This document shows positions 9,068 to 63,970 of a stretch of 64,000 nt of DNA, one piece after another. The DNA is from Norana najaformis (Eukaryota > Annelida > Clitellata > Crassiclitellata > Hormogastridae). The stretch lies in NCBI GenBank assembly GCA_964023275.1, contig OZ029927.1:22458980-22522979 (forward strand). Reading direction: 5' to 3'. The notes under the pieces were generated by a model. The model did no database searches. It was not told the DNA's origin and saw only the letters and a program-made list of their open reading frames with translations. The stretch's first letter is position 1; each line of letters starts with the position of its first letter. Both the position numbers and the translations under genes were made by a program.

Positions 9068-9134
9068 ATGAAACCTTACTTTATTTTGCTACACGTGGCT
9101 TGCTTTTGTGATTTCATTTTTACTCAAAGCGATG
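9068..9134 (+). CDS. Gene 2 exon 1: signal peptide
   Basis: ATG 9068-9070 opens MKPYFILLHVACFCDFIFTQ, a short basic start then a hydrophobic core, ending GATG/gtgagt (phase 1). 67 nt, exactly as in genes 4 and 5. Unlike genes 3-5 the donor is GT rather than GC. Confidence 0.8.
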
Positions 9135-12100
9135 GTGAGTAGTCTCAATAACAATTACCTTCGACAGTTTAACTGATTTCTCTGTATAAATTGATATTTA
9201 GTATAAATATCTGCAAACAGTGTTAACAATTGTCTGCATAGAACGAATATGACAATTACAGTTTCCAAATATACTTGGATCAGTTGGCATTTTCTAAACG
9301 TAGATGGAACTTATCTAACTCTTGCATATTTGATTTGAGTGAAGCAACGCGAATAAGTTGGTCTCTGTGAACAGCTTCATAAAAGCTGCCTTGAGATACG
9401 AGCTTATTCACGAGTATTTTGGCGATCAACATTATGTTAATCACCGACATGTTTTCGCCTATTGTTTATGTCGACTTAAACGAACGGGTTTGACTCAGTT
9501 AGCCTAACAGTAGTGCAGTATTGTTGCAGTCCACTATCTAAAAACTCATATTTCTGCAAGGCTGTCATACCGAGTAGCCCCTCTATACAGGTTATTTTGG
9601 AGACAGGTGACATATAAATTTAACAATACGTTACAACAGTATACAAGCACTGATACTTTGAAATAAGGAATTTTACATAGGCGATTGCGTCTACCAGCAT
9701 TACGGCTTAGCGGTTGTATATGCAACTTTTGTCTACTCCCTCAGTGAAAAGGCAGCTCTTTTGTGCAGTACTCAAAAATTTCTATCAAATGTTCTGATAT
9801 TTATCGCTGCTAGAAAAGACCGTGTAGATGGAGTTTTATGTCGTATGCGGGCCTACATTTTGGGAGAGGAAGTTGACCTTATAAAAACGTTATGTTTAAC
9901 TTTTTCTCTGACTGGATGTTGGTTATTGGATGTTGCCAGTATCTTAAGTAGTCTTCTTTAGTCTTTCTGACGGGATGACTGTTTGGTAATTTCTGAGCCG
10001 TCTTGGTTCATTGCGAGCCGTTTTACGTCATCGTCTCAATTGTTTTATAGTGATACAAGGCCCAGAAAAAAGTCGAAAAAATAAGCTATAGCTTCTTGTT
10101 TATGCAAAAAGTCGTAATGTTTTAGTACGATTACCACCAAGTATAACGAGTGGTCCGCAAAGAAAGAACATCGTCTACCGAATTGACGATAATGTTACAC
10201 TGGAGTGTAAAGCCGAGGGAAACCCGACTGTCAGGGAAGTCTCTAGAATATTAATTGTTGAATTTTCCATTTATTTCCTAAGGCCATTTAAACCGACATG
10301 ACTGCTCTCTGTGGTATAGCACTTTATTGCCGATCACCCCGAGTTATTGAGATCGTGTGACCGTGCCATGTCTGCTTCCTCTGAGCAGCTACTTGCACCT
10401 GTTTTCGGTGATATGTGGCCTTTGGTGGCATACAGCAAGCTCCTGCTTTTTCTGGGTGCGCATTGGTCAACAGCAACACGTGGTAGGGCAGTATGAAGCT
10501 GTGGATACGACACTGGCAAGAACAGTTAAGTTAGGCAGCTCGAGTCTGGTTAGTCCTTCAATAAGCGTCTGCTATGAAGTAACGAGCTATCTGATGTGGT
10601 CTCAGCCGGCCATTGTTTGGGGTTTGCTTAATAAATATAAAGGGTTTTTGCAAGGTTAAAAAAGTACCCCGTTGTTAAATTGCTGTAGTTGCGTTTGCAT
10701 CTCAACCTAAAGATCTATTATGTATTATTCGACCTTGGGACCACGCTTCTAAGAGTATCAGGTATATTATCTTTACAATCCAATTCGATTCGCTTACTTT
10801 TGTTCACCTGGGTGTGATAGTAATCACAATTTGCATTGTTTGATTCCACCTTGTCCTTGTATGATCTTGTTAAGGATCCTTGCAAGTCGCTTCCTTTTCA
10901 TATAGACCCTACGAGGTATTCAGAAAATAAGGGCCAGCTGCTTCAACCTACGTGTCTTGTTCACATTGTAACCAAAACATCTAATTAGTACATTTGAAGT
11001 TTTTATGAATTATTTACAGATATGAATGGAAAAAGAATGGCTTTGAATTAAACAAAAATCTTCCAAATATCCACAAAGGTGAAGATGGTACAATAACAAT
11101 TAAACCTGCCACATCGATGGACGAAGGCTTCTACCAGTGTTTTGCTAGGAATCAGTACGGCACAGCTCTTTCAGTCACGACACATGTTCAGAGAGCATTT
11201 CTTGAATCCACTTCCGGTTCTCCTAATATTCTTCAGAAAAGCGTTCAAGAGGGGACGCCATTTCATATTCAGGCCATTCAACGCAAAAGTATCCCAAAGT
11301 CTACTTATAGCTGGGAGATGGCAGCTAACACTATGGGCAGAAATCCAGTTGCACTACGGCCTTCGAAAAGGATACAAATCGCTGAGAACGGTAAAATTTT
11401 GATCATATTTTTGTTGAAGTAGTTACATGTATGTCTCTGCAGTCTGCGAACCATAATGGCAATCAAGGTTTCATTGCATATACGATGCCATCGGTATCCA
11501 GATATTTCAAGTCCAAAGTTTTTGTCCATTTGCTTAGTTGCTTAATTAGTTAGTAATCCTGAAACTTAATATTCACGCTGTTTGGTACCTCACCAAAGCA
11601 CTGCCCAATGCTAGTCTAAATGGTGTTTATTTGTTGACTGGTGATCACATTTCAGTCACAGATACCATCCAAAAACGCACAAACATCTACAGTGGCATCG
11701 AGAAATAACTCCAAGATGCAACCCATTCACAGTGGATCAGTTTAGTTAAATGAGCTCATGTACCGAAATGGATGATACCACAGGTCGTTACTGTTTCATT
11801 TTAAAAGCTTGCGTCTGATATTTTTCTTCTGTTTTCTTTTGTTTTAGGTGATCTATACTTTGCTTATGCTCTTCCGAAGGATGACCTTGGTGGAAAAATT
11901 TACAAGTGCACAACTCATAACGATGTCCTCGATATAAAATCAGGAGAAAGTTATACGCAACTAACTGTGACACCAAGTAAAAGCATTAATTAACCAGTAC
12001 ATCGGTATAAACTAATCAATAAATAATTTTAAAGTAAATAATTCTCAGTTGGTATTTTTTAAAATAAGACAAATATTAACATATCAGTTACATGTCTCTT

Positions 12101-15100
12101 AATGTCTTTCGTGTTCTTTTCGTGTTACAGATCCAGCCAAAATAACTCAGTTTGCTCCAACTTTAGGATTTTCGTCAGAAGCACATACTGTTGCTCTCAT
12201 TGGGAGAACTGTATCTCTTAGATGCTTCTTCTCTGGAAAGTAAGTTTACTTAAATGAGCAGCACTTTTAAGTCGCTTTCTCGTGTGCTTGGAATATCCTT
12301 CCAACATGTATTCAGGAGACCAACAGTGTCTACACTTTCAACAAAAAGCAACTGAGACTCTGTTTTTTATGTAACCCTTAGTATTTACGCTGACAACTGA
12401 CATTGTAAAGCAACCTTGAAGTGGCTCTATACTTAAAATGTTCTATGAATTGTTGTCGATACAATTATTGTATTAGAAAAAGTGACAAAACTCTTTGGAA
12501 CTAGGATAGAATTATTGCTACAACTGTAGTTACCACGAGAAAATGCATGCTTGCATGTATGTATGTATGTTTGTATGTATGTATGTAAGCATGCATGAAT
12601 GTATGAATAAAGTAACCGTCAAGAACCTGTCAGAATTTGTGCAATGCTTAAATGGACAATTATACTACCGTAATTATCGTATTGCAATACCCTAGCGAAT
12701 GGCAGCATCCTATTTGTTATATAGTAACACATAGACCTAGAACGACGTTTGGCAAATATAATTCTTGGGCTGTCTTAAAGCTTAATTAAGTTGCTTTGTA
12801 AACGGATTAGCAGTTTAGCCTACATGTACATCCGCCTCTGTCTGCAGCTTATTTGATACCAGCTTTATCGGAATCCTATATCCGTTCAGTTGTTCTTTGC
12901 CTCATATCCTCATGTCTAAACTGCCCAAATTACCGTACTTGGCTACTTTTCCATAAGACGTAAAGACGTTCCTGCATCATCAGTCAGATAAAAGTATGAC
13001 CGAAAAATGGCAATTGAACAGTACCTCGAATTTTGTTAAGCGCTTTTCATACAGTTGCTGACTTTAACATAAATTAAATTTTTTCTGTAACATTGCAATG
13101 TATTTCGTACCTGTTTATTCAGTCCAGAGCCATCAATTTCCTGGTCAGGACCAAGAGATAAGCTTCCCATTGGAAGATACACGCTAAATAATTTTAATAC
13201 GGAACTAACTATAAACAGCATAACTACATCTGATGAAGGAGACTACGTCTGCGCTGCTTCAAATACCCAAGGACGCAACACACATACTCTTCAGTTACGC
13301 GTCGAAGGTCTGACATTTTTGTAAATAATTTGGTTATGACCTATAGCATTAAGTTATCGATTGAAACCTTACCTGGGCGCATTACAATAAGCTAAATCCT
13401 TCATTGTATGCTGATAGGCTTCAAAAGATGAAACCAAGGAAGGCAAATGACGTCCCAATAACCGGTTCACATAATTGCTTACCACTAAGTAAGTAAATAA
13501 ATAAGTAAGTAAGTAGTGTTAACCCGGCCATATGTCCATCGGCTGAGCGAGGAATCAGTAATAAGCGAGGCAGTAATGGCATTAGCATTTCCTAGTACGG
13601 TGCAAGTGCAGGCTTGAAGAACATAATTTGAAGAGTTCCTATTTCGGAAGAGTCTGATTGTAAGCCATCAACAAACTCCGCATGTTTATTAAGAGGAAAC
13701 TTGATTGCTTTGTCTTTACTGTGATTTTAATGCTTAATTCTTGTAAAAGGTATAAAATACATAAAATCGACCGCAATAAGAAATAGACTATAAGAATTGA
13801 TATGTTTTTTGTATGTACTCCTGTTATCTGTTCTGTTAAGTCAAATTTCTTTCAAACTGGACAGAAAAATAAGGTCGAAGCCCGAACACTTTTGTTTTAA
13901 AACACAGTCTTATATTAATCAATTACAGAAGCGCAGTTTTATCTTTCAATTTGAAAATTATTTATGAAATCAGCTGAACCGAAGTTTAACAGAGCGATTG
14001 ATGGTCAATACAATGTCAATGTAACCGAAGGAGAATCGGTTACCTTCAATTGCAACGCCTTCGCCATACCTAAGGCTGATATTGTGTGGCTCCAGAATGG
14101 ACAACCAATAGACAGTGAGTTGTTACTTAGCTGTTCATAAGTGTGAATGGTTCAATATTCTTTTTCAATGTCTAGATTTCCTTAGGGGACAACCGGCTGC
14201 CTTAGTATGCAGACAGGGATGAAGAGCTCGGTTCTTCGACTGATGTTGAAACGAACACTCAATAAAGCTTTGTAAAAGAAGCCGTGGCTCAAACAGCTAA
14301 ACCCCAAAACCAGTATATATGAGATTATCAAAAAGCTAAACCTCAAATATATTTGAGGTATTAAAGAGTTTTCTTTATTCCATCATATCGATGAGTGCAG
14401 TGAGGGTCTCCAATCTAACGTACCGTCATTCTGGAATGTTGTTCTTATAAAAGTTCTAGAGTCTGAACGTGAAAAATTCAAGGCGCGTTGTTCGATAACC
14501 TTTCTTTTCATTAGATGTTTTCGAGTTCTATAATCAAAAACGAGGTGAAGAGCAAAAGTCCAAGAAAAATATGACACTAGCTTAAACATAACCATTTCTA
14601 CTGCTGCAAATTCAAAATAAATAAATAAAAATGGATAAATAAAAACAAAATACTTCAATGACTTTAACTGTTACCTATGTTACTAAGGCTTGTGAGGGTG
14701 GCATATCTTATTGTGAGCATAGTTCTGCATAATTGTGCTCAGTATTTTAAGAATCTTTCAAAGCTTCTAGAAAGATCCAATGCAAATATTCAAGTACTGT
14801 ATTTTTCGTTTTTTCATTTGGTGTTTTATAGCTGACAACCCTCCCGAGAGATTTTTGTTCAGCAGCGACAAGAAAAGTCTGATCATCAGAAATGTTTGTC
14901 GAGATTGCGAAGATCGACAGAGTCAAACGGACCTGATGGTTGTTCAATGCAACGCAAGCAACGTTCACGGATACGCCTTTGCCTCGGGATACTTGAACGT
15001 TCTCAGTGAGTCTGCGATATGAGCTTTGAACGTTCTATGCAAGTCTGCATCATGAGCTTATTCACTAAAATCCAGTGTTTACTAGTTGTATACAAAGTTT

Positions 15101-17825
15101 CGAATTTTGTAAGCTTAATGCAAATTCTAGGTTATTTTTGAATTCTATTCTAATCTAGTAACAACTTCAGGGCCGTTGTCACATCGCTCAATGATCAATC
15201 GATGGTCGCTTCAAGTGAATTGAAATTCAAAAACATTATCAGTTGGAGAAATCAGGCTGAAATTCGATAGGTCAGAGAAACCACAGCCACGGCGAACAGA
15301 CGAGTCTTAAATTTAGACCTGAATGACATCAAAGAACCGAAAGAATGAGTAGAACAATGTAGCGGCTTCCACAGTTATAAACGGCTCATTGTCTAGGACG
15401 GAGCAGCGGGACCAATATCAGCTTCGCATTCGTACTGGATCAAACTTTTCAAGAAATGTTATTGTTACCATTATTATTAATTTCTATATTAATTAAAATT
15501 AATAGCTGTTGACTCTAATTCTTTTTCTCAGTGAAGACAAAGGTGGCGATTAAAGTTTCAAAAGATGTGTCAGTTGATTTTCTGGAGCAAAAGCAATTCG
15601 TCTTTCAGTGTCATGTAACTACTGATCCGAGCACACCTCTGATGGTGCGATGGTACAAAATAGAACCTTTTGGTGATTTAGTTGTTGATGAGCCGCCATA
15701 CATCTATGTAACAAGGGATCTCTTGATCATAGTGATTTATCCAAACTGTTCCGCTAATTGCACAAAATACCTCGGAGAATACGGGTGCGTTGGTGACAAC
15801 GGATACAGCCAAGACAATGGGACGATAACACTTACTTTAAAGCCCCCAACAGGTGAACACATTGAAAGCAAATGTTATTTATTATTAGTTTAGAACAGTG
15901 GTTGAACGTTCACAGATGCGTATTAATGAAAGAAGAATATCAGCTTTTGAAATTTTTACATTGTTTAGCCACACTAATTTTAGTCTCGGAATTCATGAAT
16001 GGCCTTTTAAGTGCCAGATATGCGATGTGTTTATAAAAAAATATAATGCCAAACGCTAACTTTGTTTCGTTGCCCCAAAGACATTTTCGAATTTTTGCTT
16101 TATGGTAAATGTCTGTGACAGTAGCTGCAGTCAAAGAGATCGAAGAACCATGGGTAGGGTGGAAGATAATTCTAGGAGGCGGAGCTGTTGGTCTATTTCT
16201 GCTTCTCGTCGGAGTTTTCTTTGTCTTCCGTTTGAAGCGACGAACTGGTGGTAAGCAGTCCCCTGCAGTTTGAATTTTATTAGGTTCTATTAGAGGTCGT
16301 AGTGGAGTCATCTGCCTAAACCTCTGCAAGGGCCCATACGATTGTACGTATGTATTTGGACATTCTTGTGGCACTAGTTATGGACATTCACTATAATCTC
16401 AGTACTCAAAAGGGAAAGGCTAACTATATTTTGGAGTGACATTCAGGTTCCAGAAAACCTATAAAATTTAGGAAGAACTTATCCGAAACAATTTTAAAGT
16501 GTTTTCTTGTTTTCGAAAGTGAATATTAGAGATTTGCTTCTTACCCCTTGTTGCTAAATTTCTGGTTGCTCTGAATTATCAGATTTCGATCGGGCTTCTT
16601 TAACGGAATATTATATTGACTACGATTTCACCTGAGACGACCTTCGACTGATGTTTTATGCATTATCAGAACTTCGCTGTGGATTATCATTAGCTCATCG
16701 AATAGATTAGATTAGTGTGTCTTAATTAAGGTATAGAGGTTATTCTGATTTTTAAAGAACCTCGACCGCCTAATAACATATTCTACCAAACGACTATTTG
16801 AATCCTTAATCGAGCCTCTCATCTTCAGCCAAACAAAATACAGATTTGAGATTAACTCCACACTGCCAGCCTATGTAGGCTGGCTTTAACTAGCTCAATC
16901 GACTATCTCGTCTGTTTTCTTTAAGCTTCTCTTGGTTCTGAATGTACATCTTAAGGTAGATGTTTGATTCCCCCTTTCTTTCTAAACTAATGCCATGGAA
17001 CAGCAAAATGTCGACACCAATGTATCTTAGGTTCTCCTACTTTTAGCCCACGAATCTTGCCTCTGGGTTGTTCAGCTTGCTGTACGTTCACCCTGCCTGT
17101 CAACCTCAAGCAATAGACGCTTCCCCAGATATGTGTGGCCATTCTCGGTTCACCTTTACAGAATCACCTGGTGTGAAATATCAACAATTCCAGTATAATC
17201 CTGCCATATTGTAATCCGTCTTCGCCTCTTCCAATGCATGTCTACCATTGCAGTTTCTATAGCAGCTACTGTTTCACTGTGGACCACCATTCGTGCTGTT
17301 AAATTTTGGTTCAGCTGGCTTCAAAATAAATTTCAAATTTAAATGTAATATTGCGCGTTTGTAGTTGCTCAATATGGGAATGAGTTAAGAGAAAAGGGCT
17401 CTGGACTTAGACCTTATTTTTGCTGTCATTTTCAATTGTCAGTGTTTAATATACTTTAGCGACTTATACACTATCATAATTGCATACCCACACATATTTG
17501 CAGCGTGAAAGATGAAAAGAAGAAATGAACAGTCCCTCGAGCTAAGCATGAGGAGCCACGTGTATGAATTGCTAAAGATTTCACTTTCTTAGCCTTGGCA
17601 TGAGAGGGCGGATGGCAAGTCCTCTCCCTTGAAGCCTGGTCTTCCCACCAACATTGTACAGTCAATGCACTCATTTTATACCGAGTTCACTCGTGGGCGC
17701 GGGTTGTTCTGGCGAGGATTGGAACCCCGACATAACAACTACTCAAACACTTAAACTCAAAAAAATGAATCTCTAATTAGTGCGGTTAACTGATGCGATG
17801 GGTGTAATCAGTGATCTTTTTACTC

Positions 17826-17892
<67 letters not shown>

Positions 17893-18538
17893 TAGAAAAT
17901 AAATCTATTGTTACGTCACTTCAATTATGAAACAAATCTATTGTTGCTGGAGCAACTAGAGCTGCTGTGGCAGCTATTATTATTATGATTATTATTATTA
18001 TTAGTAGTAGTAGTAGTATTAGTATTAGTATTATTATTATCATCATCATCATCGTCATCATCATTATTATTTCTGCATTTATGATTTCAATTTAATTTTT
18101 TTTTAAATTTTACTAAAAAATCTTTACGTTTCAGTTGTCAACAGACGAACGAAAGAAAAGAGATTACCCAATCTCCCTAGCATGAACGAGCGTGTAGAAT
18201 ATGATTCCGTAGCTCAGACTCTGGAAGCAGTGGGAAACAAAGAAGGATCGATGCCACGAGCATGCAGCATATATGAACACATTGGTTATGAATCAGTTGA
18301 TCAGATACCGCAATCTCCTGATGTGCATCAAGACATCGGATATGAATCACTAGATTCGATACAGAAAGAAGTGAATCCCTACTTGGATCTAAGTCCTAAA
18401 GAAGTGAATCCCTACTTAGATCTGGTTTCGAAAGAAGTGAATCCCTACTTGGATCTGGTTTCGAAAGAAGTGAATCCCTACTTGGATCTGGTTTCGAAAG
18501 AAGTGAATCCCTACTTGGATCTCAGCCCAAAGAAGTGA
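9068..18538 (+). CDS. Gene 2 (type A tail): L1-derived Ig receptor with YxxL repeat tail, probably impaired
   Basis: Exons 9068-9134, 10126-10234, 11020-11390, 11848-11976, 12131-12239, 13123-13307, 13974-14114, 14832-15005, 15532-15852, 16122-16250, 18135-18538; 2139 nt, 712 aa, all phases consistent. Order: signal peptide 1-22, Ig1 about 23-115, Ig2 to 225, Ig3 to 323, Ig4 to 428, Ig6-like to 535, TM exon to 578, tail 579-712. Ig1 to Ig4 follow L1/neurofascin (PPSITSGP, YQCFARNQYGTALS, GDLYFAYA, CNASNVHGYAFASGYLNVL); Ig5 and fibronectin domains are absent. The tail has ITIM-like sites (VEYDSV, IGYESL) and five exact-period YLDL repeats. Two lesions: the donor after exon 2 reads GG at 10235-10236, and a one-base deletion near 18533 ends the tail at 18536-18538, about 55 codons early. 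Surface signalling receptor by architecture; may be a recent pseudogene or an allele with sequence errors. Confidence 0.72.
10126..10234 (+). CDS. Gene 2 exon 2: Ig1, first half (donor broken)
   Basis: Acceptor atgttttag. Reads RLPPSITSGP ... VTLECKAEGNPTV, the first beta-sheet and Cys of L1 Ig1. The homologous exons of genes 4 and 5 end at /gtaaatg; here the matching position is AG/ggaagt, so the GT donor is missing. Confidence 0.75.
10235..11019 (+). other. Gene 2 intron 2 with a locally GC-richer insert
   Basis: Begins with the defective donor GGAAGT. Positions about 10290-10660 are clearly richer in G+C than the surroundings and carry open frames on both strands (10357-10659 +, 10334-10519 -) with no recognisable domain. 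Probably inserted DNA; origin unknown. Confidence 0.4.
11020..11390 (+). CDS. Gene 2 exon 3: Ig1 second half and Ig2 first half
   Basis: Acceptor tatttacag, donor aacg/gtaaaa; 371 nt, phase 2 to 1. Contains YEWKKNG, DEGFYQCFARNQYGTALS (Ig1 F-G strands) and the Ig2 start VQEGTPFHIQAIQ ... STYSW. The Ig2 B-strand Cys is replaced (HIQA instead of LQC). Confidence 0.85.
11848..11976 (+). CDS. Gene 2 exon 4: Ig2 second half
   Basis: Acceptor ttgttttag, donor ccaa/gtaaaa; 129 nt, phase 1-1. Reads GDLYFAYALPKDDLGGKIYKC, matching the GDLYFSNV segment of L1 Ig2. It keeps the F-strand Cys although its partner in exon 3 is gone. Confidence 0.83.
12131..12239 (+). CDS. Gene 2 exon 5: Ig3 first half
   Basis: Acceptor gtgttacag, donor gaaa/gtaagt; 109 nt, phase 1 to 2. 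Encodes QFAPTLGFSSEAHTVALIG then VSLRCFFSGK with the Ig3 B-strand Cys. Confidence 0.83.
12544..12604. repeat. (GTAT)n / GCATGC simple repeat
   Basis: Tetranucleotide GTAT array bounded by GCATGC palindromes, inside the gene 2 intron between the halves of Ig3. Confidence 0.9.
13123..13307 (+). CDS. Gene 2 exon 6: Ig3 second half
   Basis: Acceptor tttattcag, donor gaag/gtctga; 185 nt, phase 2 to 1. Contains ISWSGPRDKLP, ELTINSITTSDEGDYVCAAS and the G strand LRVEG: a complete C to G half of an I-set Ig domain. Confidence 0.85.
13974..14114 (+). CDS. Gene 2 exon 7: Ig4 first half
   Basis: Acceptor tgaaatcag, donor gaca/gtgagt; 141 nt, phase 1-1. Reads AEPKFNRAIDG, NVTEGESVTFNCNAFAIPKA and IVWLQNGQPID, matching L1 Ig4 up to the C' strand. 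NVT is a possible N-glycosylation site. Confidence 0.85.
14832..15005 (+). CDS. Gene 2 exon 8: Ig4 second half with extra CxxC
   Basis: Acceptor gttttatag, donor ctca/gtgagt; 174 nt, phase 1-1. Encodes KSLIIRNVCRDCEDRQ and VQCNASNVHGYAFASGYL; the second part closely follows L1 Ig4 CNTSNEHGY. The VCRDC pair before the F strand is an addition relative to L1. Confidence 0.85.
15187..15430. repeat. Dispersed repeat with TCGATGGTCGCTTCAAGTGA
   Basis: Part of the intron before the Ig6-like exon. Shares TCGATGGTCGCTTCAAGTGA with 6460-6480 and a shortened form with 29290-29310. Flanking sequence suggests a degraded retroelement 3' end; family not identified. Confidence 0.4.
15532..15852 (+). CDS. 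Gene 2 exon 9: L1-Ig6-like domain
   Basis: Acceptor tttctcag, donor acag/gtgaac; 321 nt, phase 1-1, a whole domain in one exon. Contains FVFQCHVTTDPSTP, VRWYK, DEPPYIYV, the extra Cys pair in PNCSANCTKY and GEYGCVGDNGYS. Sequons at NCS and NCT. Confidence 0.87.
16122..16250 (+). CDS. Gene 2 exon 10: transmembrane segment
   Basis: Acceptor ctgtgacag, donor ggtg/gtaagc; 129 nt, phase 1-1. Short acidic stalk (VKEIEEPWVGW), helix LGGGAVGLFLLLVGVFFVF, basic stop RLKRRTGG. Reading on through the intron meets TGA at 16271-16273. Confidence 0.85.
17826..18066. repeat. (TTA)n / (ATC)n microsatellite before gene 2 tail exon
   Basis: Long TTA array (17826-17889) and a second TTA/GTA/ATC array (17975-18066), about 70 bp before the tail-exon acceptor. 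Gene 4 has a related TTA/CAT tract in the same place (46848-46980). Confidence 0.93.
18135..18538 (+). CDS. Gene 2 exon 11: tyrosine-rich tail, type A, truncated
   Basis: Acceptor acgtttcag. Begins VVNRRTKEKRLPNLP; ITIM-like VEYDSV and IGYESL; then five 33-bp units at 18368-18532, each KEVNPYLDL plus VS or SP. Stop TGA 18536-18538 arises by loss of one base compared with gene 4. The out-of-frame remainder to TAA 18705-18707 still shows the old end (PVYTTLHETDD). Confidence 0.82.
18368..18532 (+). repeat. 33-bp coding tandem repeat, 5 units
   Basis: Five contiguous in-frame 33-bp units starting at 18368, 18401, 18434, 18467 and 18500. Each encodes EVNPYLDL plus a three-residue linker. The copies are nearly identical, so unit number probably changes easily by slippage or unequal exchange. 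Confidence 0.93.
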
Positions 18539-18707
18539 ATCACTACCTGGATGTGGATCTACAAGAGGAGGATTCGTCCTTGGATTTGGGATACTGAATA
18601 TGGGTCCGAAAGCGCTGGATCCCTACTTGTATCTGACTCCAGATCCGGTCTCTCCACCAGTGTATACAACCTTACATGAAACGGACGATGTCATTTCTCA
18701 GAACTAA
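18539..18707 (+). pseudogene. Out-of-frame remnant of the gene 2 tail end
   Basis: Aligns with the last part of the tail in genes 3 and 4 (YLDV, EEDSSLDLGY, LYLTPDPVSPPVYTTL, TDDVISQN) but needs two frame changes: a base lost near 18533 and another near 18594 (actgaata against acttggata). Ends at TAA 18705-18707. An AATAAA follows at 18885-18890. Confidence 0.75.
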
Positions 18708-22015: not shown

Positions 22016-22029
22016 TACATTGTGTGCAC

Positions 22030-22160: not shown

Positions 22161-22165
22161 TTTTG

Positions 22166-23374: not shown

Positions 23375-23442
23375 ATGAAAGCTCTCATTGTTTTTTCTCA
23401 ATTTGGCTTGCCTTTGTGGCTTCATTGTCTCTCAAAACGATG
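23375..23442 (+). pseudogene. Gene 3 exon 1: signal peptide with one-base insertion
   Basis: ATG 23375-23377. 68 nt against 67 in genes 2, 4 and 5. Alignment with gene 4 places the extra base in TTTTTT at 23391-23396; after it the frame reads LPLWLHCLSKRW instead of a normal signal core. Donor is GC (gatg/gcaagt). Confidence 0.72.
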
Positions 23443-23674
23443 GCAAGTAGCCTAGATATTATGGAAATTATGTAATGGTAATCATATTAGTTGATTATAT
23501 TTATTGCCATTGTTTATCCGATATGATCTCATCAGAAACTATGTTATATGTCAGCGCAATAATTCGCAAGGCATCAACCGATATCATTTCCCAGCAAATC
23601 TACAAGGGAGGCTTAAAAACAGTGAAATACATCTACACTCTCTTTAATAGATGGACTTTCTTGCAGTTTCCGCG

Positions 23675-23698
23675 TTCCGATCCGAGTACACCACCGAA
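23675..23698 (+). repeat. 24-bp copy of Ig6 exon sequence at a deletion junction
   Basis: Identical over 24 bp to 24583-24606 within the gene 3 Ig6 exon (starts TTCCGATCCGAG), but placed in the intron where genes 4 and 5 have unrelated sequence. Confidence 0.8.
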
Positions 23699-24249
23699 CA
23701 AACTGTCTTAAATAGCTTCATCTGTTGATGCTTCACTCGTGCGGGTTTTCCTGCAATTAAGGAACCGCCCCTTCTGTCCACACCGATGGCAACAGACCTG
23801 GTGGTCTTATTTGGATACAATAACGTTCGGGGAGTAGTTTTAATTGGGACGTCACAATGCAAGATATCGAGGCTCCTTCTTATCTACAGTATCTGCAACC
23901 TCTATGCTGTCCGGGATGCATCAAAATTGGCAGCAACCAGAAAAACCTCAATACACCTAGTCACATTAAACTTAGCACTTGGTCCTACTGGCTTTAGAAA
24001 CTCTTGGAGATATCAATATCACTGTGGTCGCTTCTCTACCAGTGCTTAGCTCAAATTTCTGGAAATTTAAGACAAGTTATTTCTTAAAACGCCTTGCAAA
24101 AACTAAACTCTACACTTTAATGCTGTAGCCTTCCGCAACATTTTCGCATTGCCAGATCTTGACGTGAATAGCCTCTGCAGATGAAATTTTGTAATCAGAG
24201 CATATTTTTGAAATCCCAAGTCATCACAGCTATGTTGAATTAGCCTAGA

Positions 24250-24255
<6 letters not shown>

Positions 24256-24291
<36 letters not shown>

Positions 24292-24412: not shown

Positions 24413-24494
24413 CTTGAGTAATTTTTCAGTTTCTGAGGGATTATACTTACCTCGGGCAAAAAAATAATAATAGTTGCGTTTAATTATTTCTCAG

Positions 24495-51611: not shown

Positions 51612-51678
51612 ATGAAAGCTCTCGTTGTTATTCACAACTTGGCTTGCCTTTGTGCCTTCATTCTCACTCAAAACGATG
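51612..51678 (+). CDS. Gene 5 exon 1: signal peptide
   Basis: ATG 51612-51614, MKALVVIHNLACLCAFILTQ; 67 nt. GC donor (gatg/gcaagt). Confidence 0.85.
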
Positions 51679-54600: not shown

Positions 54601-57600
54601 TTTCAATCATGGCACATATTCAGAGCGCATTTCTTGATTTTCCCCCACAAGGTCCCACTGTTACAGTGACAGTTCAGGAGGGTCGTCCGTTTGTCATTCC
54701 AGCTTATCGACCAAATAGTTTACCAAAGCCAATATACGCTTGGACATCTGCAACAAATACTGTCGACTCTTTTCGAGGGTCATTACTTCCTTCACGAAGG
54801 ATGCAACTTGCAAACAACGGTAATGATCATCTAATAAACGTCCGCTAAAGTGGCTAGCACGTTCCTATATGCTTTCTGGTACAAAAATATTTAAAAGACA
54901 GTTGGTTTAATGTGGTCAGCATCTTATCACTTGTCTGATTACTAAAGAATAGCCACATTATATGTATGGTACACGAAGCGCAAGAATAAGTTGTATTACA
55001 ATAAAAATTTAAGTTCACATTCTAGTCAGAGAACAATTTTGCGCACTGAATAATAACTAGAGCCAAACGGTGATGGTTATCTGCTACTTGAAGACTAGAA
55101 CTTAGGAAACATGCTGAACAGTTAACGGGTTTCATTGCGACGACTTCCGCTACGCCGATTAGTTCTGAATGGTGATAGAAAATGTAAGTGCCTTTTATGG
55201 CTGAATAAAAAAAACTTTGCAATATGTCATCTAAGTTTTTAACGGTTTCTGCGACGACAGCTTGAAGAAGATTAGCACTACCTAAATCTTGGCTTTTTAA
55301 TTTATGAGAGGATATTTCTTCATTGCTGATCAGTTTAACCTCTGCTTAGGGGATCTTTATTTTGCCTATGCTGAAAAGGCCGACGAACTTGGTGGAGAAC
55401 TTTACACTAGCTCAGCTTACAACCCACATCTGGACCTCACTGTGACGGGAAGCTATACAAGAGTTACTGTAACAAATGGTAGTAATATAGTTGTTTGATT
55501 AATATTTTATAAACAATTTCAGACCACAGGTTAAATCGCATTTCTTAAACCTGATCTACACGCATGCGCTTCTGAACTTGAAGTTTGTGCCGAATTAAGT
55601 AACGGTAACGCATTTCTTTACAAAACTCTGTAGAAATTTTTCAGTAACTTCGTCCCAGAGTTTAAAGGACTTATCGGCTGAACCGCAAATGGGGCGTGTG
55701 TATGTATTTATTTAGAACTTTACAAAGGCGCTAAACATGGCTATCTAACATATAGGTTGAAAATGTTCGCATTATCTAACCTAACCATATTACACTCATT
55801 TAGCCTCCTATCTTCCATTGGTAACCATACTCATGGAGGGTTGAGCTGACCCAAATGGTTAGTATTCCATGGATGGTACATTTTCCAAGTATTGATCTAG
55901 CTCGACGCTTCTTAACTTCAGTTTGTTCACCAGCGTCGCATGTAGAGCGCCAATTAGCCACCTAAATATAACACATGATTTATACAGCACCCGCTGATAC
56001 CTAACTGATGTGCAGACCAATTTTTGTGTGAAAGAGCACTTGTAGCAATGGAACTTAACGATTTTAATGTTACAGGTTCTAAACCTTTGCCTGAATTTGC
56101 TCCGAACATTACGTACTCATCTGTGTCACCGGACGACGCTCTCATTGGAGGCAGTGTTACACTGAAGTGTTTCTTTTCGGCAAAGTAAGTCAGTCCTCAA
56201 TTTAGCGCTTGGAATGAATATTTTTTAATTTAAATTTCTCAATCTTGAATGTAGAAGAAGCATAGTGACGATATTTTTATTACTGCACCTCTGCCATTGT
56301 TTCTTCAGTCCGTTGCCTGAGATCCAGTGGAGAGGGCCAGGAAATACGCTGTCCCATAGAAGAAGCTTTACCTTAAATTTCGAAACGGAACTTATCATTT
56401 CTAACATAATCGAATCTGACGAAGGAAACTACGTCTGCACTGCTACAAACACCAACGGAAGTTATGAACACAATCTTCATATTCGTGTTGAAGGTTTGTC
56501 TAAACTTGATGTTGTTTTACTCACAATTAATTTATAGAATATTGTAGAAGTTGGGCCGAAACAATTAAGTCCATAAATAACAATATGGACACCAAGTGGA
56601 AGCAACATATAGTGTAATATTAGGTCAATTCTTACTGCTTAAAACCGGACTCAAAAAAAAATTGCTACTTAAATTCTAACCTGGATTGTTATGTTACAGA
56701 TACAGTATCTTCACCTGACAGAAATTATAATTGACGCCATCATTTCATGTAAATTATAAATTCATGCATGTGCAAGCATTCACACGTTTTTAATATATGA
56801 TTTTTAAAAAACATATGTGCATATTTGCCTAACTGTCTACTACATACAGTATGGTGATGTATATCGATCGATTTGTCTATCTACATTGTAGCCTATATGC
56901 CAATTTAATATCTTTATTCTTATTAAAATCTAATACTGGAATTTTAGTGGTCTCATCATTTCTTGGCTTCATACGAGAAGAACAACTAGGTATAACTAAC
57001 AAACTATGGCACAATTTTATACATAGTGCACTTGTGATCATTGCAGCCATAATATGTTTTCTGAGACTGTCATTCGATGCCACAAGTGTGTCGATTTATG
57101 ATGTAGGATAGCTAACATTGAGTTCCCCTCGTTTATCAAGCAATTAGGTAATGTTTATTGTTAACAGATCTAACTGGAACAAATTGGTTTATGGCTTTGA
57201 ATTTCCTGATCTTTTCATGTTGTATTTATGCCACCATTATCCTTTTCCGTAATTCTCACACGTGTTAATCTTGTTTTGCAGCTGCGCCTAAGTTCATCCG
57301 AGAGTCTAATGGTCCACGCAATATCAACGTGACGGAAGGCGAGTCCGTTACGTTCAACTGCAATGCATCTGCCAAACCAGAAGCTGTTGTTGTCTGGCTT
57401 CAGAATGGACAACCAATAGATGGTAAAACATAAGCAACGTTGATTTAAAATGTAATACTGCATTATGCTGCATTGATGCGCTGACTGAAGGTCTGATACA
57501 ATGCAGATGGAGGCTCTGGCATTTTTTCACCGACGTGGCTTTGTGCCTGCTAGAATCTAATACACAAGGTAGCAATCGATTAAAACAAGATGTACCGCAG

Positions 57601-60600
57601 AGGTAGTAAACTTCAGAAAATTAGACCATTAAATAAGATTGGCAAGCAAGGCTGGTATAAAAGTTTATTCTTGAATCTTGAAAATAGTAAATTCTATTTA
57701 AAGACTATGTAAAGCCAAATGTAAGTCACCAACTTATTCAAAGCGCTGCGTCAAGACAGAGGACTTGTCCAGAGATACTAAATGTAGTGATAGATGATGG
57801 AAAGATCGAACTGCATAAAGGCTAGAGCAGGACGCAGGAAGAACTGTTACGGTGAGTTCTGTTAGGCTGAAAGATATGGAAAGGCAGCGCATTGCATGGG
57901 TCAGGGTAAGTACTTAGCTCTGAACGGAAAGCATGAAAAGTGTTAGGTATATGTATAGGGGCGTGAGACAGGTAATTCTGTCGGCCTAATTTACAAGATA
58001 CATCATTGTATTTTGTAAGAACAAGATAAAGATCAGCAAATTGCCATGCGTGATTAATCTGTTGTTGCGTAGGCCTACGTATGTCTCCTCACACCTCTTC
58101 AACAAGTCACAAATTATTTAAAATAGCTAAGGGTAAACTCTATATTGCAAATTCATTTTGCTTCAATAACAAATAAAAATTTTGCGGTTATGTTTTCGAA
58201 AGCCAATAACGCTCCCTCGAGATTTGCGTTCAGCAGTGACAAGAAAAGTCTGACGATCAGAGACGTTTGTCGAGATTGCGACGATCGTCAGAGTCAGACG
58301 GACCTGATGGTTATTCAGTGCAATGCAAGCAACGTTCACGGATACGCCTTTGCTTCTGGATACCTGAACGTTCTGCGTAAGTAACCAAACGTTCTCATCG
58401 CAGTGCTAGTAACTGTTTTAACCCCAAGCTGCTATAAGAGAAAGTTGTTGGCTGTTGGCTTAAGTTAGGCTATTTATTCCCGTTAAACTTTTAACGCGTT
58501 TTGTATCAATGCTCAGAAAACTGTGCAAATATTGTCAATACAATATATTAAAAGTCAAATATTAAGAAAACATTACTCCAAAAATAGTTGTCAAAGTAGG
58601 ACAGGGTTCTGAATGTTTATAAATTCTTGTACGGCAGTTGTATAAGACGCTGATGGTTCTAAATCATACAACACAAAGAGAATAACATCAGAAAGCGAAT
58701 GATGATTGTTTTGAGGCTTTGAGCTCAATTATTATTTCTATTTAAACCTTTCCTTCTTAAAGTTTGTTTTGTCCTTGCTACGTCCTCGTCTTTGTCTACC
58801 TCTTCTCAAGACTCATGCTTTGATTTCTCCCGCCGAAGATTTATCCTGTAACCGTCCTAGTTCTACGCCGAACATGACCTGTTTTATTCTTTCCTGTTCC
58901 TTCCTTTCAGTTAGCCTATCGTAAATATTATTCCACTGAAACTGCACAGCCTGCTGTTCACGATCATAATCACTACTTTCAAGAAACATTTAAAAACCGA
59001 ACTTTTCTTGCATGCCTTCCTGGATTAACTGTTTCCCTCTGCTCCAAGTGCTTCTGAATCGTTGTTTTCGACTCGTCGACTGCTTACGAACTACAGCACT
59101 CTAATCTCTACATTATTATTATTATTATTATTATTATTTATTATTATTATTATTATTATATCCGTTCTACAGATGACAGAAAGGTCACTGGTCTCATTCT
59201 TCTTGACCCTTCAGGTGCTTTTGATACCGTCGTACATGTCATACTTCTTCACCGTCGCGAACAATAGTTCGTCTCGCCAGTTATACCCTCAACTGGTTTG
59301 CACCTTACCTGTGTTGTCGGACTCGGTCTGTCCACGTTAACGAATATACCTCAGCACTGGGTGTTTTAAGTTGCGGTGCTTCACAAGGACCTGTCCTTCG
59401 ACCTCTGCTCTTCATCTTTGTTCCACATCGCTTGGTGCGATGCTTGCCTATAATAACTAAGCCACCAGCTGCATATGCTGACGACACAACTTCTGATTTT
59501 ATTTTGAAAATTTCATGTCTGCTCTTCATCTTGTGTGGTATTCAATAAACTTCTTTTTAACCCATCTTCATTGAATTCCCTCTTTTTCTGCTCAAACAAA
59601 GCTCTCGTATTTGCTAAAGCATTTGCGCGATTTCGACTGCTTACTTATAATGATTCGGGTGGATTGGTGTAACTCGTAATAGGTCCTCATGTACAGTGTA
59701 TTTAGGACGTCATATTTTCCAATGTATCTACTTCAGAACGTATTCGGGCTGCCTTCCTTTCACAAACGCTGCCCTCGCACAATCGATGTTTTGACTCTTG
59801 TTGTGCTCCAAATCAGAAAGGTTCTCGATGCCCGGTCTCTAGAATCTATATTCTATCCTTTCCGCATATTATATGGCTGAAGTCTCGTTTTCGTCTGATA
59901 GCTCATCTGCGGTAGCTTGTCTTCCGGCCTCTGGATCCTCTTGGAATCGATTGGTTCAATGGATTGTGATTTCGAAACATTTTTACCAAGAATCGCCCAT
60001 CGATGTCCGGCCTATACTAGATTAGAATAGATCATCATAATCGTCGTCACCATAATCTTAACTGCTTTGTGTCTAGGTAGGACAAAAGTGTCGCTTCTTG
60101 GTCCAACCTTCGTATCAGTTGATCTTACAAAGAAAAATCAGTTCCAATTTAACTGCAGTGCAACGTCTGATCCAAGTACACTTCCAAACATTCAGTGGTA
60201 CGGGAAAGGACCTGACGGCCCGCAAGCGGTTAACAACGAGCCGCCTTATGTCTATTTAATGAACGGTATCTTAACCATAAACACTTATCCAAACTGCTCC
60301 ACTACATGTGCTAAACATCTCGCAGAATACAGGTGCATTGGTGATAATGGATACAGCCGAGATTTTGCAACAGTGAGATTCAATGCCACAGGTAAGCATA
60401 GTTTCAGACAATTTTAAGTAAATATAATTCTGAGCTTGTTTTGTGTTTCTACAGATACGCGTAAAAGATAAAACATCCCATTTCTAATCAATATCTCGTT
60501 ACATAAAAATCTCACTTATAAAAACCACTTTTGAATTGCCTACAAACGATGTACTAATTAGAAATTTCATGGTCCTCTTGACCTAAAAAAAGATCTTTTG

Positions 60601-63600
60601 CGGTACTGTAATCTATCGGTAACGAGTTTGGTCATAAATCATGTGGTAGAGGGTTCGACTTCGTGTAACTACTCTGGGCAAGTTGTTTGCCATATCGTGT
60701 CCCTGTCAACATGCAGTATAATTTGGTACCCGCGTAAGCTGGGAAGTAAACGGCATGTCCTATGATTCCTGTGATGCACTGGCCTCATGTCCAGAACACT
60801 GGGATTCGTTCATTGCTGGCTCAAGAGTGAACCGCAAGGACAGCCATATGCTTAATATCTGACCGCGCTAATAGTAAATAAATATATATATATATATTAC
60901 TCTTGTTATTACTATTAGTATAATCACTATTAGGGCGGTCAAATGTCAACCATATGCCTGTCCTGGCAGTTAACTCTCGGCCGTTGATGGTTCACTTGGA
61001 TTTTCTTGCAGTGTCCGCATTGGTCGGGCTACCGAACAAACTGTCTCTAATTACTTCATCTGCTGACGCCTCAATCGTGCAGGCTTTGCTGCAATTAAGG
61101 AACCGCCCGTTTTGTCCAGACTGGTGACAAAAGACTTGATAGTTTTTCTTAGATTCAATAATGCATCACAGTAACAGATACCGTGGCTCAACCTTATTTG
61201 CCTGCAACCTCTACTCTGCCCTGAGTTGCATCAAAATTGACAGTTACCAGGAAAACACCAAATACACTAACATTTCAAATTTATAACTTTTTCAACAGCT
61301 TTTCGAAACTCCGAGACCCATCAGCATCACTGCGTTCGCTTCCCTCAGTAAAAATGGGCCAGTACCTGGCTCACTTTCTGGAAATTAAACCGACTAGTTA
61401 AAACAGATGCAATCCTATATTTTAATCCAGCCGTCTTCCTCAAGATTTTTGCTGCTTTTGACGAGGACTATCCTCTACAGATATTATTTTGTAACCATCA
61501 CGTATTTTTGGAATCTCAAGTCATCACAGCTACCTTAGATTAACCTACAAGGTTACTAGTATGAAATTATAGTTGCGTTTAATTCTGTTTCGCAGTGAAG
61601 ACAAGAGTGGAGATTAGAGGCACAAAAAACGTATCAGTTGATTTTCTGGAAGAAAAGCAGTTCGTCTTTCAGTGTCATGTAACTACTGATCCGAGTACTC
61701 CTCCGATGATACGATGGTACAAGGTACAACCGTATGGTGACTTAGTTCGTGATGAGCCGCCTTACGTCTATGTAACAAAGGATATCTTGGTCATAATGAT
61801 TTATCCAAACTGCTCCTCTTTTTGCTCTAAATACCTCGGAGAATACAGGTGCATTGGTGACAATGGATACAGCCAAGACAATAGCACGATTACTCTTACC
61901 TTTAAGCCTCCAACAGGTGAACGCATTAAAAGCAAGCAAATGTTATTTATTATAAATGTGACGCTATCATTCGGTTTAACACTAGACAATTCCTGACATT
62001 AAATGAAAGACTTAGAGTAGTAATTGAACATTCACAGATAGATATTTATAAAAGAAGGATAAAAACTTCACAAGCTTTACTTTGCTTAGTTACGCTAAGT
62101 AAAGTATCACAATTTATGAATAGCCACTCAAGTGCCAGATATATGGTATATTTATAAAGGAATAAAATTTCAAACGCCTGTTTTGTTTAGTTGTCTCAAA
62201 AGACATTTTGGAATTTTTGAGTTGCGGTAAATATCTTTTACAGACGCTGTCAAGGAGAACGAAGTATGGAAGATAATTCCAGGAGTCGGAGCTGTTGTCC
62301 TATTTCTGTTTCTCATCGGAGTTTTCTTTGGCTTCTGTCGGAAGCGATACTTTGGTGGTAAAGATGCAATTGCGTTTTAATTTTTACCAGGTCCTAGTAG
62401 AGATAGCAGGAAGGACACTTGCACCGGGCCTCAACATCTTTTGTACCTAAAATATTTTGTATATAAGTATCTGGACATTTTTAGCGTCTTTTAAGGTCAT
62501 TTGTCTTGATCTGATTATGCAACTTACAAAAAGAGGTTGTGACTTTTTGAATTATTGCTGTGGTGGCGAAAGGTCTGTAACACCGGGACACGTTCCATGA
62601 ATGTTTTGGACACAATGGATGTAATTATAACATATAACTAAGCAATAGGTAGAGCTAAAATGAACTCTCTTCGCTAACTAGATATTAATAAAAGCATGAT
62701 TGCTATGAATATCTGTAGTATATAGGTAGAGTTATGTGCCATGTCTTAAAAGATATATCCGGCATATGCAATGATCCCCAGTCGCCTAGATTATTGTTAC
62801 TGGCTTCTTTAAGGTGTCACATAGTTAAACCTGCAGAATTTGTAGATAGTTAAGAACTCTGCAGCTAAAATCATAACAGATATATCACGATATAAACATA
62901 TAACATCTTTACTTAAATCTTAGCATTGGTTACTTGTTCAGCAAAGGAACACTTTCATATTGGAACTTATAGTTCATGAAACATTAAAATAGTGGCCGAC
63001 CACAGTAGTTAGAATAATTCCTTATTTTCCTGCTTCATCAATGTTCAGCTAGGTCGTCTGGTTGTCTTTCTCTACTTATTTAAAAACTAGAGCTGTTCGT
63101 GGTGATGGTTCTTTCGGTTACCTAACCTCTTTAATCTGGCTTATTCACTATAGAATGCCTTCTTGTTTCAATGGACTCACCTTCTGTGCACTGACAGCCC
63201 TAGGGCTTGGTTTGGGATGCTTTGTGCGTTAGACATTGGCGTTAAAACTTGCTGAATATTAATTTGTATTGCAGCTTTTATTAAACTGAATTTCATGTCC
63301 AAATCTTTTTTAACCTAATTTAGACAGTAAATTCTAATATGAACTATTGATTCCGTCGCCTACATTGCTGTACATTTTAGGCGAGAACAGGCGAACCAAA
63401 GAAAGGAGATTGCCGAATGCTCCTAGCATGTACGAGTGTGTAGACTATGATGCAATAGTTCAGCCTCTGGAAGCAGTAGGAAACGGAGAAGGATTGATGC
63501 CACGAGCATGCGGCATGTATGAACACATTGGTTATGACTCGATTGATCAGATACTGGAAGAAATGGCGAAAAGGGAAAAGGCGATGCCGCATCCTCCTGA

Positions 63601-63970
63601 TGTGCATGGATACAATATATATGAATCAATAGATGCACCACAGAAAGAAGTGACACATAGAGATAGACAGATGCACGCTGAAAATACAATGTATGACCCC
63701 ATGGCTTTTTCAATCCCTCTGGAAGAAATGAAAACTCGCGGAAAATTAGATCAACATCAAGTCGACGGTTACGAATCAGTAACAAGTGAATCAGAGAATT
63801 TTCCACTCCCAAATGAGCAATCAGAATCAACAAATGCTTACTCGGATCTGAGTCGAAACGAAGAGGCTCCGTATTTGAATCTAATAAATTCGGATACGAG
63901 GCCGAAAGAGGTGACTTCCAACTTGGGTATGCGTGCAAAAGAAGTGAATCCCTACTTGGATCTGGTTTGA
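51612..63970 (+). CDS. Gene 5 (type B tail): L1-derived Ig receptor with extra Ig6 and early stop
   Basis: Exons 51612-51678, 53058-53163, 54452-54819, 55350-55478, 56076-56184, 56309-56493, 57282-57422, 58203-58376, 60077-60391, 61596-61916, 62244-62357, 63381-63970; 2619 nt, 872 aa, phases all consistent. Signal peptide 1-22; Ig1 to about 115; Ig2 to 223; Ig3 to 321; Ig4 to 426; two Ig6-like domains (427-531 and 532-638); TM exon to 676; tail 677-872. Compared with gene 4 it has one more Ig domain from an exon duplication. The tail is type B (GENRRTKERRLPN, as gene 3) with ITIM-like VDYDAI, GMYEHI, IGYDSI. Within the YxxL repeats a TGA (63968-63970) replaces TCG of the usual YLDLVSKE; the frame is open beyond it (NEANPYMNMG) to the window end. 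So either a truncated tail or a recent nonsense change; the gene end lies outside. Confidence 0.8.
53058..53163 (+). CDS. Gene 5 exon 2: Ig1, first half
   Basis: Acceptor gtttgttgtag, donor taac/gtaaat; 106 nt. RKPPSITEGPRPRKIF, IELTCDAEGTPAV. Confidence 0.84.
54452..54819 (+). CDS. Gene 5 exon 3: Ig1 second half and Ig2 first half
   Basis: Acceptor ttattgtag, donor aacg/gtaatg; 368 nt. YEWKKNGVDLN, DEGFYQCFASNQFGTALS, VQEGRPFVIPAYR. Ig2 B-strand Cys absent. Confidence 0.87.
55350..55478 (+). CDS. Gene 5 exon 4: Ig2 second half
   Basis: Acceptor tctgcttag, donor aatg/gtagta; 129 nt. GDLYFAYAEKADELGGELYT, SSAYNPHLDLTVTG. Ser at the Cys position. Confidence 0.83.
56076..56184 (+). CDS. Gene 5 exon 5: Ig3 first half
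   Basis: Acceptor atgttacag, donor caaa/gtaagt; 109 nt. EFAPNITYSSVSPDD, GGSVTLKCFFSAK. Confidence 0.86.
56309..56493 (+). CDS. Gene 5 exon 6: Ig3 second half
   Basis: Acceptor tttcttcag, donor gaag/gtttgt; 185 nt. IQWRGPGNTLSHRRSF, SDEGNYVCTATNTNGSY, LHIRVEG. The intron before it is only 124 bp, against 718 bp in gene 4. Confidence 0.87.
57282..57422 (+). CDS. Gene 5 exon 7: Ig4 first half
   Basis: Acceptor ttttgcag, donor gatg/gtaaaa; 141 nt. APKFIRESNGP, NVTEGESVTFNCNASAKPEA, VVWLQNGQPID. Confidence 0.88.
58203..58376 (+). CDS. Gene 5 exon 8: Ig4 second half with VCRDC
   Basis: Acceptor is weak (ttttcgaaag), donor ctgc/gtaagt; 174 nt. KSLTIRDVCRDCDDRQSQ, VIQCNASNVHGYAFASGYL. Confidence 0.84.
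58735..59990 (+). mobile_element. Decayed non-LTR retrotransposon with YADD motif
   Basis: In the intron before the extra Ig6 exon. Pieces in order across broken frames: RKYYSTETA (about 58919), VTGLILLDPSGAFDTV (about 59185-59235), VLSCGASQGPVL (about 59365-59400), AYADDTT (59471-59491). These are the ordered motifs of a non-LTR reverse transcriptase domain; frameshifts and a TTA microsatellite (59115-59160) show it is dead. Confidence 0.78.
60077..60391 (+). CDS. Gene 5 exon 9: additional L1-Ig6-like domain
   Basis: Acceptor tgtgtctag, donor acag/gtaagc; 315 nt, phase 1-1. FQFNCSATSDPSTLPNIQWY, NEPPYVYLMNG, PNCSTTCAKHLAEYRCIGDN. Clearly a copy of the Ig6 exon type, present only in gene 5. 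Confidence 0.86.
60595..60860 (+). mobile_element. tRNA-derived SINE, copy 2
   Basis: Matches 28335-28600: CTATCGGTAACGAGTTTGG, a B-box-like GGGTTCGACTTCG, CTGGGCAAGTTGTTTGCC, GCGTAAGCTGGGAAGTAAAC, GGGATTCGTTCATTG. Ends before an ATATAT run (60882-60897). Confidence 0.75.
61596..61916 (+). CDS. Gene 5 exon 10: L1-Ig6-like domain
   Basis: Acceptor gtttcgcag, donor acag/gtgaac; 321 nt, phase 1-1. FVFQCHVTTDPSTPPMIRWY, DEPPYVYVTKD, PNCSSFCSKYLGEYRCIGDN. Confidence 0.88.
62244..62357 (+). CDS. Gene 5 exon 11: transmembrane segment
   Basis: Acceptor cttttacag, donor ggtg/gtaaag; 114 nt, phase 1-1. Stalk AVKENEVWK, helix GVGAVVLFLFLIGVFFGF, basic CRKRYFGG. Read-through meets TAA about 62378. Confidence 0.84.
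63381..63970 (+). CDS. Gene 5 exon 12: tyrosine-rich tail, type B, stops early
   Basis: Acceptor acattttag. GENRRTKERRLPNAP; ITIM-like VDYDAI, GMYEHI, IGYDSI; YSDL-x7-YLNL and a last YLDL, then TGA 63968-63970. The next codons in the same frame (NEANPYMNMG) still resemble the repeat. Confidence 0.82.

Follow-up and report, generated by a model that had tools for sequence, protein, structure and literature searches.

Examination of a 64,000-nucleotide stretch of the genome of the annelid Norana najaformis (assembly GCA_964023275.1, contig OZ029927.1, positions 22,458,980 to 22,522,979 of the forward strand; hereafter the window) revealed an intron-rich animal gene cluster of about 38% G+C, in which four tandem copies (A to D) of a gene related to the L1 family of adhesion proteins occupy positions 9068-63970 on the + strand. 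Each copy carries a transmembrane (TM) exon between an exon for an immunoglobulin (Ig) domain, labelled Ig6, and the tail, which is encoded by one large tyrosine-rich last exon. The 3' part of a further gene, U, lies just upstream. Self-comparison of the window gave blocks 67-90% identical, tandemly repeated on the + strand, and its stop-to-stop frames form repeated families that recur in the same order in each succession. Exon cores were taken from these repeated frames and splice sites were placed by a simple consensus score, with matching phases demanded. Since the phase match is built into the method, matching phases alone are weak proof, and the weight of the gene models lies in exon boundaries that fall at the same place across copies. 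The models are as follows (P with a number denotes a protein from the database searches described below).

191..3552, + strand: gene U (3' part), from splice sites, frame, PF13882 and tblastn with P0001 and P0003; Ig6 191-520, TM 1691-1819, cytoplasmic exons 2546-2624 and 3372-3552 (stop 3550-3552) with an ankyrin-type tail (...EDGSFVGAY...)
9068..18704, + strand: copy A, from exon chain and tblastn; leader 9068-9134, Ig1a 10126-~10233 (donor lost), Ig1b/2a 11020-11390, Ig2b 11848-11976, Ig3a 12131-12239, Ig3b 13123-13307, Ig4a 13974-14114, Ig4b 14832-15005, Ig6 15532-15852, TM 16122-16250, tail from 18135, open to 18535, the repeat continuing in other frames to 18704
23375..27492, + strand: copy B, Ig1-Ig4 lost, from exon chain and tblastn; leader ~23375-23442 (out of phase), Ig6 24495-24806, TM 25134-25268, tail 26732-27489, open, stop 27490-27492
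31993..47934, + strand: copy C, 865 amino acids, the sole fully intact copy, from a phase-consistent exon chain and open frame; leader 31993-32059, Ig1a 34358-34463, Ig1b/2a 37765-38132, Ig2b 39159-39278, Ig3a 39866-39974, Ig3b 40693-40880, Ig4a 41662-41802, Ig4b 42583-42756, Ig6 43907-44227, TM 44538-44657, tail 47051-47931
47051..47931, + strand: reference tail exon (the copy C tail), 293 full codons, 19 tyrosines
51612..63970, + strand: copy D, from exon chain and tblastn; leader 51612-51678, Ig1a 53043-53163, Ig1b/2a 54452-54819, Ig2b 55350-55478, Ig3a 56076-56184, Ig3b 56309-56493, Ig4a 57282-57422, Ig4b 58203-58376, extra Ig6-like exon 60077-60391, Ig6 61596-61916, TM 62244-62357, tail 63381-63967, early stop 63968-63970

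Copy C forms a single open frame over its 11 exons, from leader peptide through tail end; its hydrophobic windows are confined to the leader and the TM exon, and Pfam finds Ig family matches above cut-off. The leader exon is followed by GT in copy A and by GC in the other three copies, so that B, C and D would use a GC donor. With P0001 as query, tblastn found Ig1a, Ig1b/2a, Ig2b, Ig3a, Ig3b, Ig4a, Ig4b and Ig6 in order in A, C and D, and Ig6 only in B. An earlier note on this DNA had described four neighbouring genes with L1-type Ig1-Ig4 and Ig6-like exons, one of them having lost Ig1-Ig4; tblastn and the domain comparisons below agree with that exon set, to which the TM exon of every copy and the extra Ig6-like exon of copy D, both omitted there, must be added.

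Hidden Markov models (HMMs) of the individual domains, built from 14 L1-family proteins, matched each of the first four Ig domains of copy C best to its own L1 counterpart: Ig1 scored 66.6 bits (next model 42.1), Ig2 32.0 (8.2), Ig3 70.8 (44.6) and Ig4 70.8 (28.1). The best match of the copy C ectodomain among solved structures was neurofascin-155 (expectation value, E, 3.3e-45; query 21-425, that is, Ig1-Ig4), followed by contactin-2 and then hemolin (PDB 1bih, E 2.1e-29). Only one of Ig5 and Ig6 is present in the cluster. The label Ig6 was chosen because the Ig6 model was best for six of seven Ig6-like domains (six from the window and one from P0001), with a margin of at most 0.3 bits in two of them; the extra domain of copy D matched Ig4 best (14.4 bits, against 13.8 for Ig6). 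On these scores the L1 identity is firm for Ig1-Ig4 and only fair for 'Ig6'.

Some further features of these domains were observed. The Ig6 of the cluster (43907-44227 in C; A, B and D alike) has an extra pair of cysteines, CxxxC, which U, P0001 and P0003 lack at the corresponding position. Ig2 of copy C has no canonical cysteines, and the extra Ig6-like exon of copy D (60077-60391) has phase-1 borders and is 51% identical to the neighbouring Ig6.

Gene U is visible from Ig6 onward only, its Ig5 region lying to the left of the window. Its tail matches the Pfam family PF13882, Bravo_FIGEY, at 69.4 bits (cut-off 23.8; E 6e-19), which bears out the earlier description of a gene with a classical L1 tail just upstream and in the same orientation. 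No match to a fibronectin type III (FnIII) domain was found in the 1170 bases between Ig6 and TM of U, nor did an HMM of the first L1 FnIII domain match any window frame of at least 30 amino acids (best E 2.8); the Pfam scan found no fn3 in copy C or in the in-window part of U (A, B and D lay outside that scan). Bravo_FIGEY is present in U, P0001, P0003, P0004 and P0007, and the same scan found none in copy C. Since the cluster lacks this tail and U has it, copies A to D, judged from the sequence, are L1-derived by descent but not L1 proper by tail.

A search of protein databases returned 134 matches at E <= 0.001 among 5647 candidates, with 120 listed. Among the matches listed, the annotated ones are distant L1 proteins, and the four best, P0001-P0004 (664-680 amino acids), combine Ig1-Ig4, Ig6, TM and an ankyrin-type tail. 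The matches of P0001 to the window abut (370-431 to Ig4, then 428-536 to Ig6), and those of P0002-P0004 do likewise, so that one of Ig5 and Ig6 is missing from these proteins. Pfam found Bravo_FIGEY but no fn3 in P0001, P0003 and P0004, and both in the control P0007; the precomputed domain list of P0002 contains no fn3. The contigs of P0003 (2216 bases) and P0004 (2318 bases) leave no room for a gene so rich in introns, and these two are thus probably transcripts. The contig of P0001 and that of P0002 each measure 12862 bases and are probably identical. P0002, probably the neighbour of P0001, has a diverged end of the ankyrin tail, possibly an early step in tail decay.

Because U lacks FnIII, and P0001-P0004 lack both FnIII and Ig5, these losses are a trait of the lineage rather than of the cluster. 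The short ectodomain, to judge from these relatives, is the local form of L1, and the cluster is distinguished by its tail. The absences of Ig5, FnIII domains and ankyrin tail that the earlier note reported for the cluster stand as such, but the loss of FnIII and Ig5 was rejected as part of the conversion, both being shared with P0001-P0004 and that of FnIII also with U.

The TM exon is bounded by phase-1 introns in U and in A to D, and it is followed in U by two ankyrin-tail exons and in each cluster copy by one long exon. The canonical tail gave a confident tblastn match at U only, the further matches elsewhere in the window (E 0.20 and 0.46) being taken as chance, and the new tail exon, at E 1e-3, was found in the window at four places only, in keeping with the earlier claim that each copy ends in one large tyrosine-rich exon. 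The new tail has no Pfam match (C at E 0.1; C, P0121 and P0125 at E 0.01), and no relation between it and the ankyrin tail was detected. A search with the lone tail exon retrieved five relatives, P0121-P0125, among 977 candidates (E 3.1e-43 to 2.8e-23). When the search was made with the whole protein and scored on its TM-plus-tail part, nothing was returned at E <= 10 among 2571 candidates, a null result probably due to the length limits of the search tool. The tail of copy C consists of an N-terminal part with two YxxPhi doublets, followed by imperfect 11-residue (33-base) NPYLDL repeats. AlphaFold2 predicted no fold for it, with a mean predicted local distance difference test score of 46, although an alignment of 9 sequences is too shallow for a strong call of disorder. 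No L1 relative with such a tail was met in the open PubMed Central (PMC) literature, mostly without subscription journals, among the matches listed; the absence of such a relative from print is not established.

Most tyrosines of the new tails have I, L, V or M at position +3 (17 of 19 in C, 11 of 14 in B, 10 of 11 in D and 9 of 9 in A). The resulting 9, 11, 17 and 10 YxxI/L/V/M sites in A, B, C and D were reached by none of 5000 shuffles per tail, a test that is inflated because one 33-base unit has been copied many times and the 11-residue repeats are not independent. In copy C the same pattern is found outside the repeat (YERV, YDAV, YEHI, YDSI, YESI, YDHM, YESV and YTTL), with YSIP and YLTP as exceptions. 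The canonical tails of U, P0001, P0003, P0004 and P0007 contain 0, 0, 0, 1 and 0 such sites. Strict pairs of the immunoreceptor tyrosine-based activation motif (ITAM; YxxL/I-x6-8-YxxL/I) number 4, 4, 2 and 1 in tails A, B, C and D, are absent from the five canonical tails, and number 2, 0, 0, 0 and 2 in P0121-P0125. With loose spacing (x6-12), the number of ITAM-like pairs was attained in none of 5000 shuffles for A and for B, in 3 for C and in 184 for D, the last figure making the single pair of D weak. As strict pairs are lacking in some relatives, ITAM spacing belongs to the repeats and is not general among the relatives.

The element common to all nine tails is a YxxPhi doublet with tyrosines 5 apart, mostly MYExxGYDSI, which is not an ITAM. 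Comparison with the outside tails gave a conservation of 0.59-0.82 in tyrosine columns against 0.44-0.51 elsewhere, higher in six of six comparisons; between 92 and 1006 of 20000 permutations were as high, the lowest figure being the best of six. The earlier note had proposed a tail like those bearing ITAMs or the corresponding inhibition motifs (ITIMs); the density of YxxI/L/V/M sites and the ITAM-like 11-residue spacing of the repeats are supported, and an ITAM/ITIM identity would be one by motif only.

Ratios of nonsynonymous to synonymous change (Ka/Ks) were obtained by a counting method, without significance test. They are 0.36 (A-C), 0.30 (A-D) and 0.55 (C-D) for the ectodomain, 0.28-0.84 for the whole tail (highest in C-D) and 0.74-1.25 for the TM exon over six pairs: the ectodomain looks constrained, the tail loosely and the TM exon hardly. 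Positive selection is not claimed, as ratios near or above 1 occur in two exons (Ig1b/2a in C-D, 1.04; TM exon in A-D, 1.25) with few synonymous changes and in such an untested comparison.

Comparison of A with C gives a Ks of 0.77-2.3, or saturation, for the six exons from Ig1a to Ig4a, and of 0.23-0.39 from Ig4b to the tail. In five of these six exons A is nearer to P0001 (57-79% protein identity) than to C (43-53%); Ig4a of A is nearer to C and D (63 and 72%) than to P0001 (59%), and for Ig6 of A the identity is 42% with P0001 against 74% with C. Judged by these values copy A is a mosaic, with Ig1-Ig3 nearer canonical L1 and Ig4b to tail nearer C and D. Selection on the protein would not be expected to alter synonymous distance in this way, and recombination or conversion is the probable cause: probably, either an L1-like 5' half was joined to a new 3' half between Ig3b and Ig4b (13.3-14.8 kb), or the 3' halves were evened out later by recombination or conversion. 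Trees of ectodomain segments have support of 23-68 at most nodes, the stronger ones being C+D in Ig1-Ig4a (100) and the four cluster Ig6 domains (94; 89 with the extra domain). Given this low support, the claim for A rests on identities and Ks and not on trees.

Three copies carry defects. In copy A the Ig1a donor reads GG instead of GT, and the frame of the tail is broken near 18535 and 18594; B has its leader exon out of phase and Ig1-Ig4 gone; in D the tail stops at 63968, although the repeat continues in frame beyond that point. These defects may be fixed, polymorphic or assembly errors.

We consider it reasonably likely that an L1-type adhesion gene gave rise, by a change of its last exon, to a tandem family of single-pass receptors whose disordered tails offer phosphotyrosines as docking sites. 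The sequence shows that L1 of this lineage already lacked FnIII (and, in the full-length relatives, Ig5). It also shows that in the cluster the TM exon, ending in phase 1 as does the canonical one, has a new last exon behind it where U has two exons for the ankyrin tail, and that this exon encodes a tail of low complexity with 9-17 YxxI/L/V/M sites. Tandem duplication of the unit went with loss in B, domain gain in D and probable recombination with a canonical-type ectodomain in A. On the proposed reading the TM exon would be spliced to the new exon, the Ig1-Ig4 ectodomain would bind a partner on another cell or particle, receptor clustering would let a Src-type kinase phosphorylate the tail, and the phosphotyrosines could dock SH2 proteins, the 11-residue repeats serving as ITAM-like pairs and YLDM as PI3K-type sites. 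An ankyrin-anchored L1 adhesion would so have been exchanged for a signalling adhesion.

Several points weigh against this proposal. Constraint is weak in the tail (Ka/Ks to 0.84) and in the TM exon (0.74-1.25), three of the four copies are defective in this assembly, with only C fully intact, and transcripts of the cluster genes were not encountered. The label Ig6 depends on small HMM margins, and the disorder call on the shallow alignment mentioned above. The ITAM-like pair of D is weak, and ITAM spacing is absent from two of the five outside relatives by either measure and from a third (P0124) by the stricter one. Moreover, YxxPhi is also the signal for endocytosis by AP-2.

This last point leads to the main rival, unlikely in our view, in which the tail is an endocytic or sorting tail whose YxxPhi sites bind AP-2 for uptake and turnover, the protein being a scavenger or a recycling adhesion molecule instead of a receptor that signals. 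The same site counts serve this explanation, since YxxI/L/V/M fits the YxxPhi sorting consensus, and the doublet common to the nine tails suits it in not being an ITAM; however, 9-17 sites with an 11-residue array exceed the need of sorting, for which one or two suffice, and by motif the repeated acidic YLDL/YLDM and the five YxxM of copy C resemble SH2 sites. We find it harder still to credit that the cluster is a short-lived duplicated family in decay, mostly pseudogenes with little present function. The donor and frame breaks of A, the lost leader phase and Ig1-Ig4 of B, the early stop of D and the upper Ka/Ks values of tail and TM exon would fit such decay, but copy C is open over 11 exons, the ectodomain ratios are 0.30-0.55, and Ig6, TM and the 252-codon tail of B remain open with 16.7%, 27.0% and 15.7% nonsynonymous difference from C; small indels could also be assembly errors, and five further tail relatives exist. 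That the tail exons are separate genes behind truncated L1 copies, as the earlier note had considered, is very improbable, no sign of it having been found in the sequence: it would agree with the lack of cluster transcripts, with P0121-P0125 being lone frames (four on contigs of 1425-3386 bases) and with modest scores of the pre-tail acceptors (-0.3 to 1.8), but all four copies have a tail acceptor at the corresponding position and in the phase of the TM donor (a match demanded by the method), the tail exon begins with basic residues, as it should if it follows a TM, the P0122 and P0125 frames begin in a stretch before the tail homology, and no shared Met opens the tail.

Other features of the window include a block of about 190-230 bases at 5207-5431, 20973-21194, 30449-30635 and 50190-50381, some 1.7-3.0 kb beyond the end of the last exon in U, A, B and C respectively. 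The block at the U flank is 76-82% identical to the others, although at the protein level Ig6 of U has only 37-39% identity with Ig6 of the copies; the block has no Rfam match and may be a conserved element, a mobile repeat or a conversion tract. Related frames on both strands at 25748-26270, 33202-33678 and 42838-43160 may correspond to the end of the reverse transcriptase reading frame of a long interspersed nuclear element (LINE), which they resemble. No Rfam match at gathering scores and, by ARAGORN, no tRNA were found in the window.

The FIGQY motif is given as common to fly, worm and vertebrate L1 proteins in the pertinent passage of PMC2597720. Like the L1 family (L1CAM, neurofascin, NrCAM, neuroglian), the cluster has Ig1-Ig4 (firm), an Ig6-like domain and a single TM, and its upstream neighbour has a FIGQY-type ankyrin tail; it differs in lacking Ig5, FnIII and the ankyrin tail, in its tyrosine-rich last exon and in its tandem array. 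The FnIII-less P0001-P0004 share Ig1-Ig4, Ig6 and TM with the cluster but have kept the ankyrin tail, diverged in P0002. Hemolin differs from the cluster in being secreted, without TM or signalling tail. It is an L1-like, immune protein of insects according to the passage of PMC12387071 that treats it, hence an L1-related protein recruited to immunity, and it matches the copy C ectodomain as noted above. Neuroglian, needed by Drosophila haemocytes to encapsulate wasp eggs in the account excerpted from PMC2667480, is likewise an L1 protein in immunity, but with a FIGQY tail, unlike the cluster. Two invertebrate systems were compared by description only, as given in part of a review (PMC11999971): oyster CgIgIT2, an Ig receptor with TM and ITAM tail, which is not called L1-derived in that part, and Hydractinia Alr, a linked family of 41 Ig receptors for self-recognition, with V-set and I-set domains and, in that part, no mention of an L1 ectodomain.

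With L1 proteins on record in immune cells, and Ig/ITAM receptors in invertebrates, an immune, haemocyte or self-recognition role would be the likeliest setting for the cluster, as a plausible one and no more. We offer only tentatively, as rather unlikely in its full extent, that one swap of the terminal exon turned a neural adhesion gene into a multigene family of ITAM-array recognition receptors, diversified by recombination with canonical L1 kin (as in copy A) and acting in self/non-self or immune recognition. The preferred reading, a tandem receptor family made by last-exon change, would trace a route from adhesion molecule to signalling receptor, with the same type of ectodomain, the same intron phase and a different last exon, while a gene of the unchanged kind still adjoins the cluster. 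The entry of L1 proteins into immunity is known from hemolin and haemocyte neuroglian, by other means, and if the new tail docks SH2 proteins, the cluster would be a case in which an invertebrate evolved ITAM-like signalling independently.

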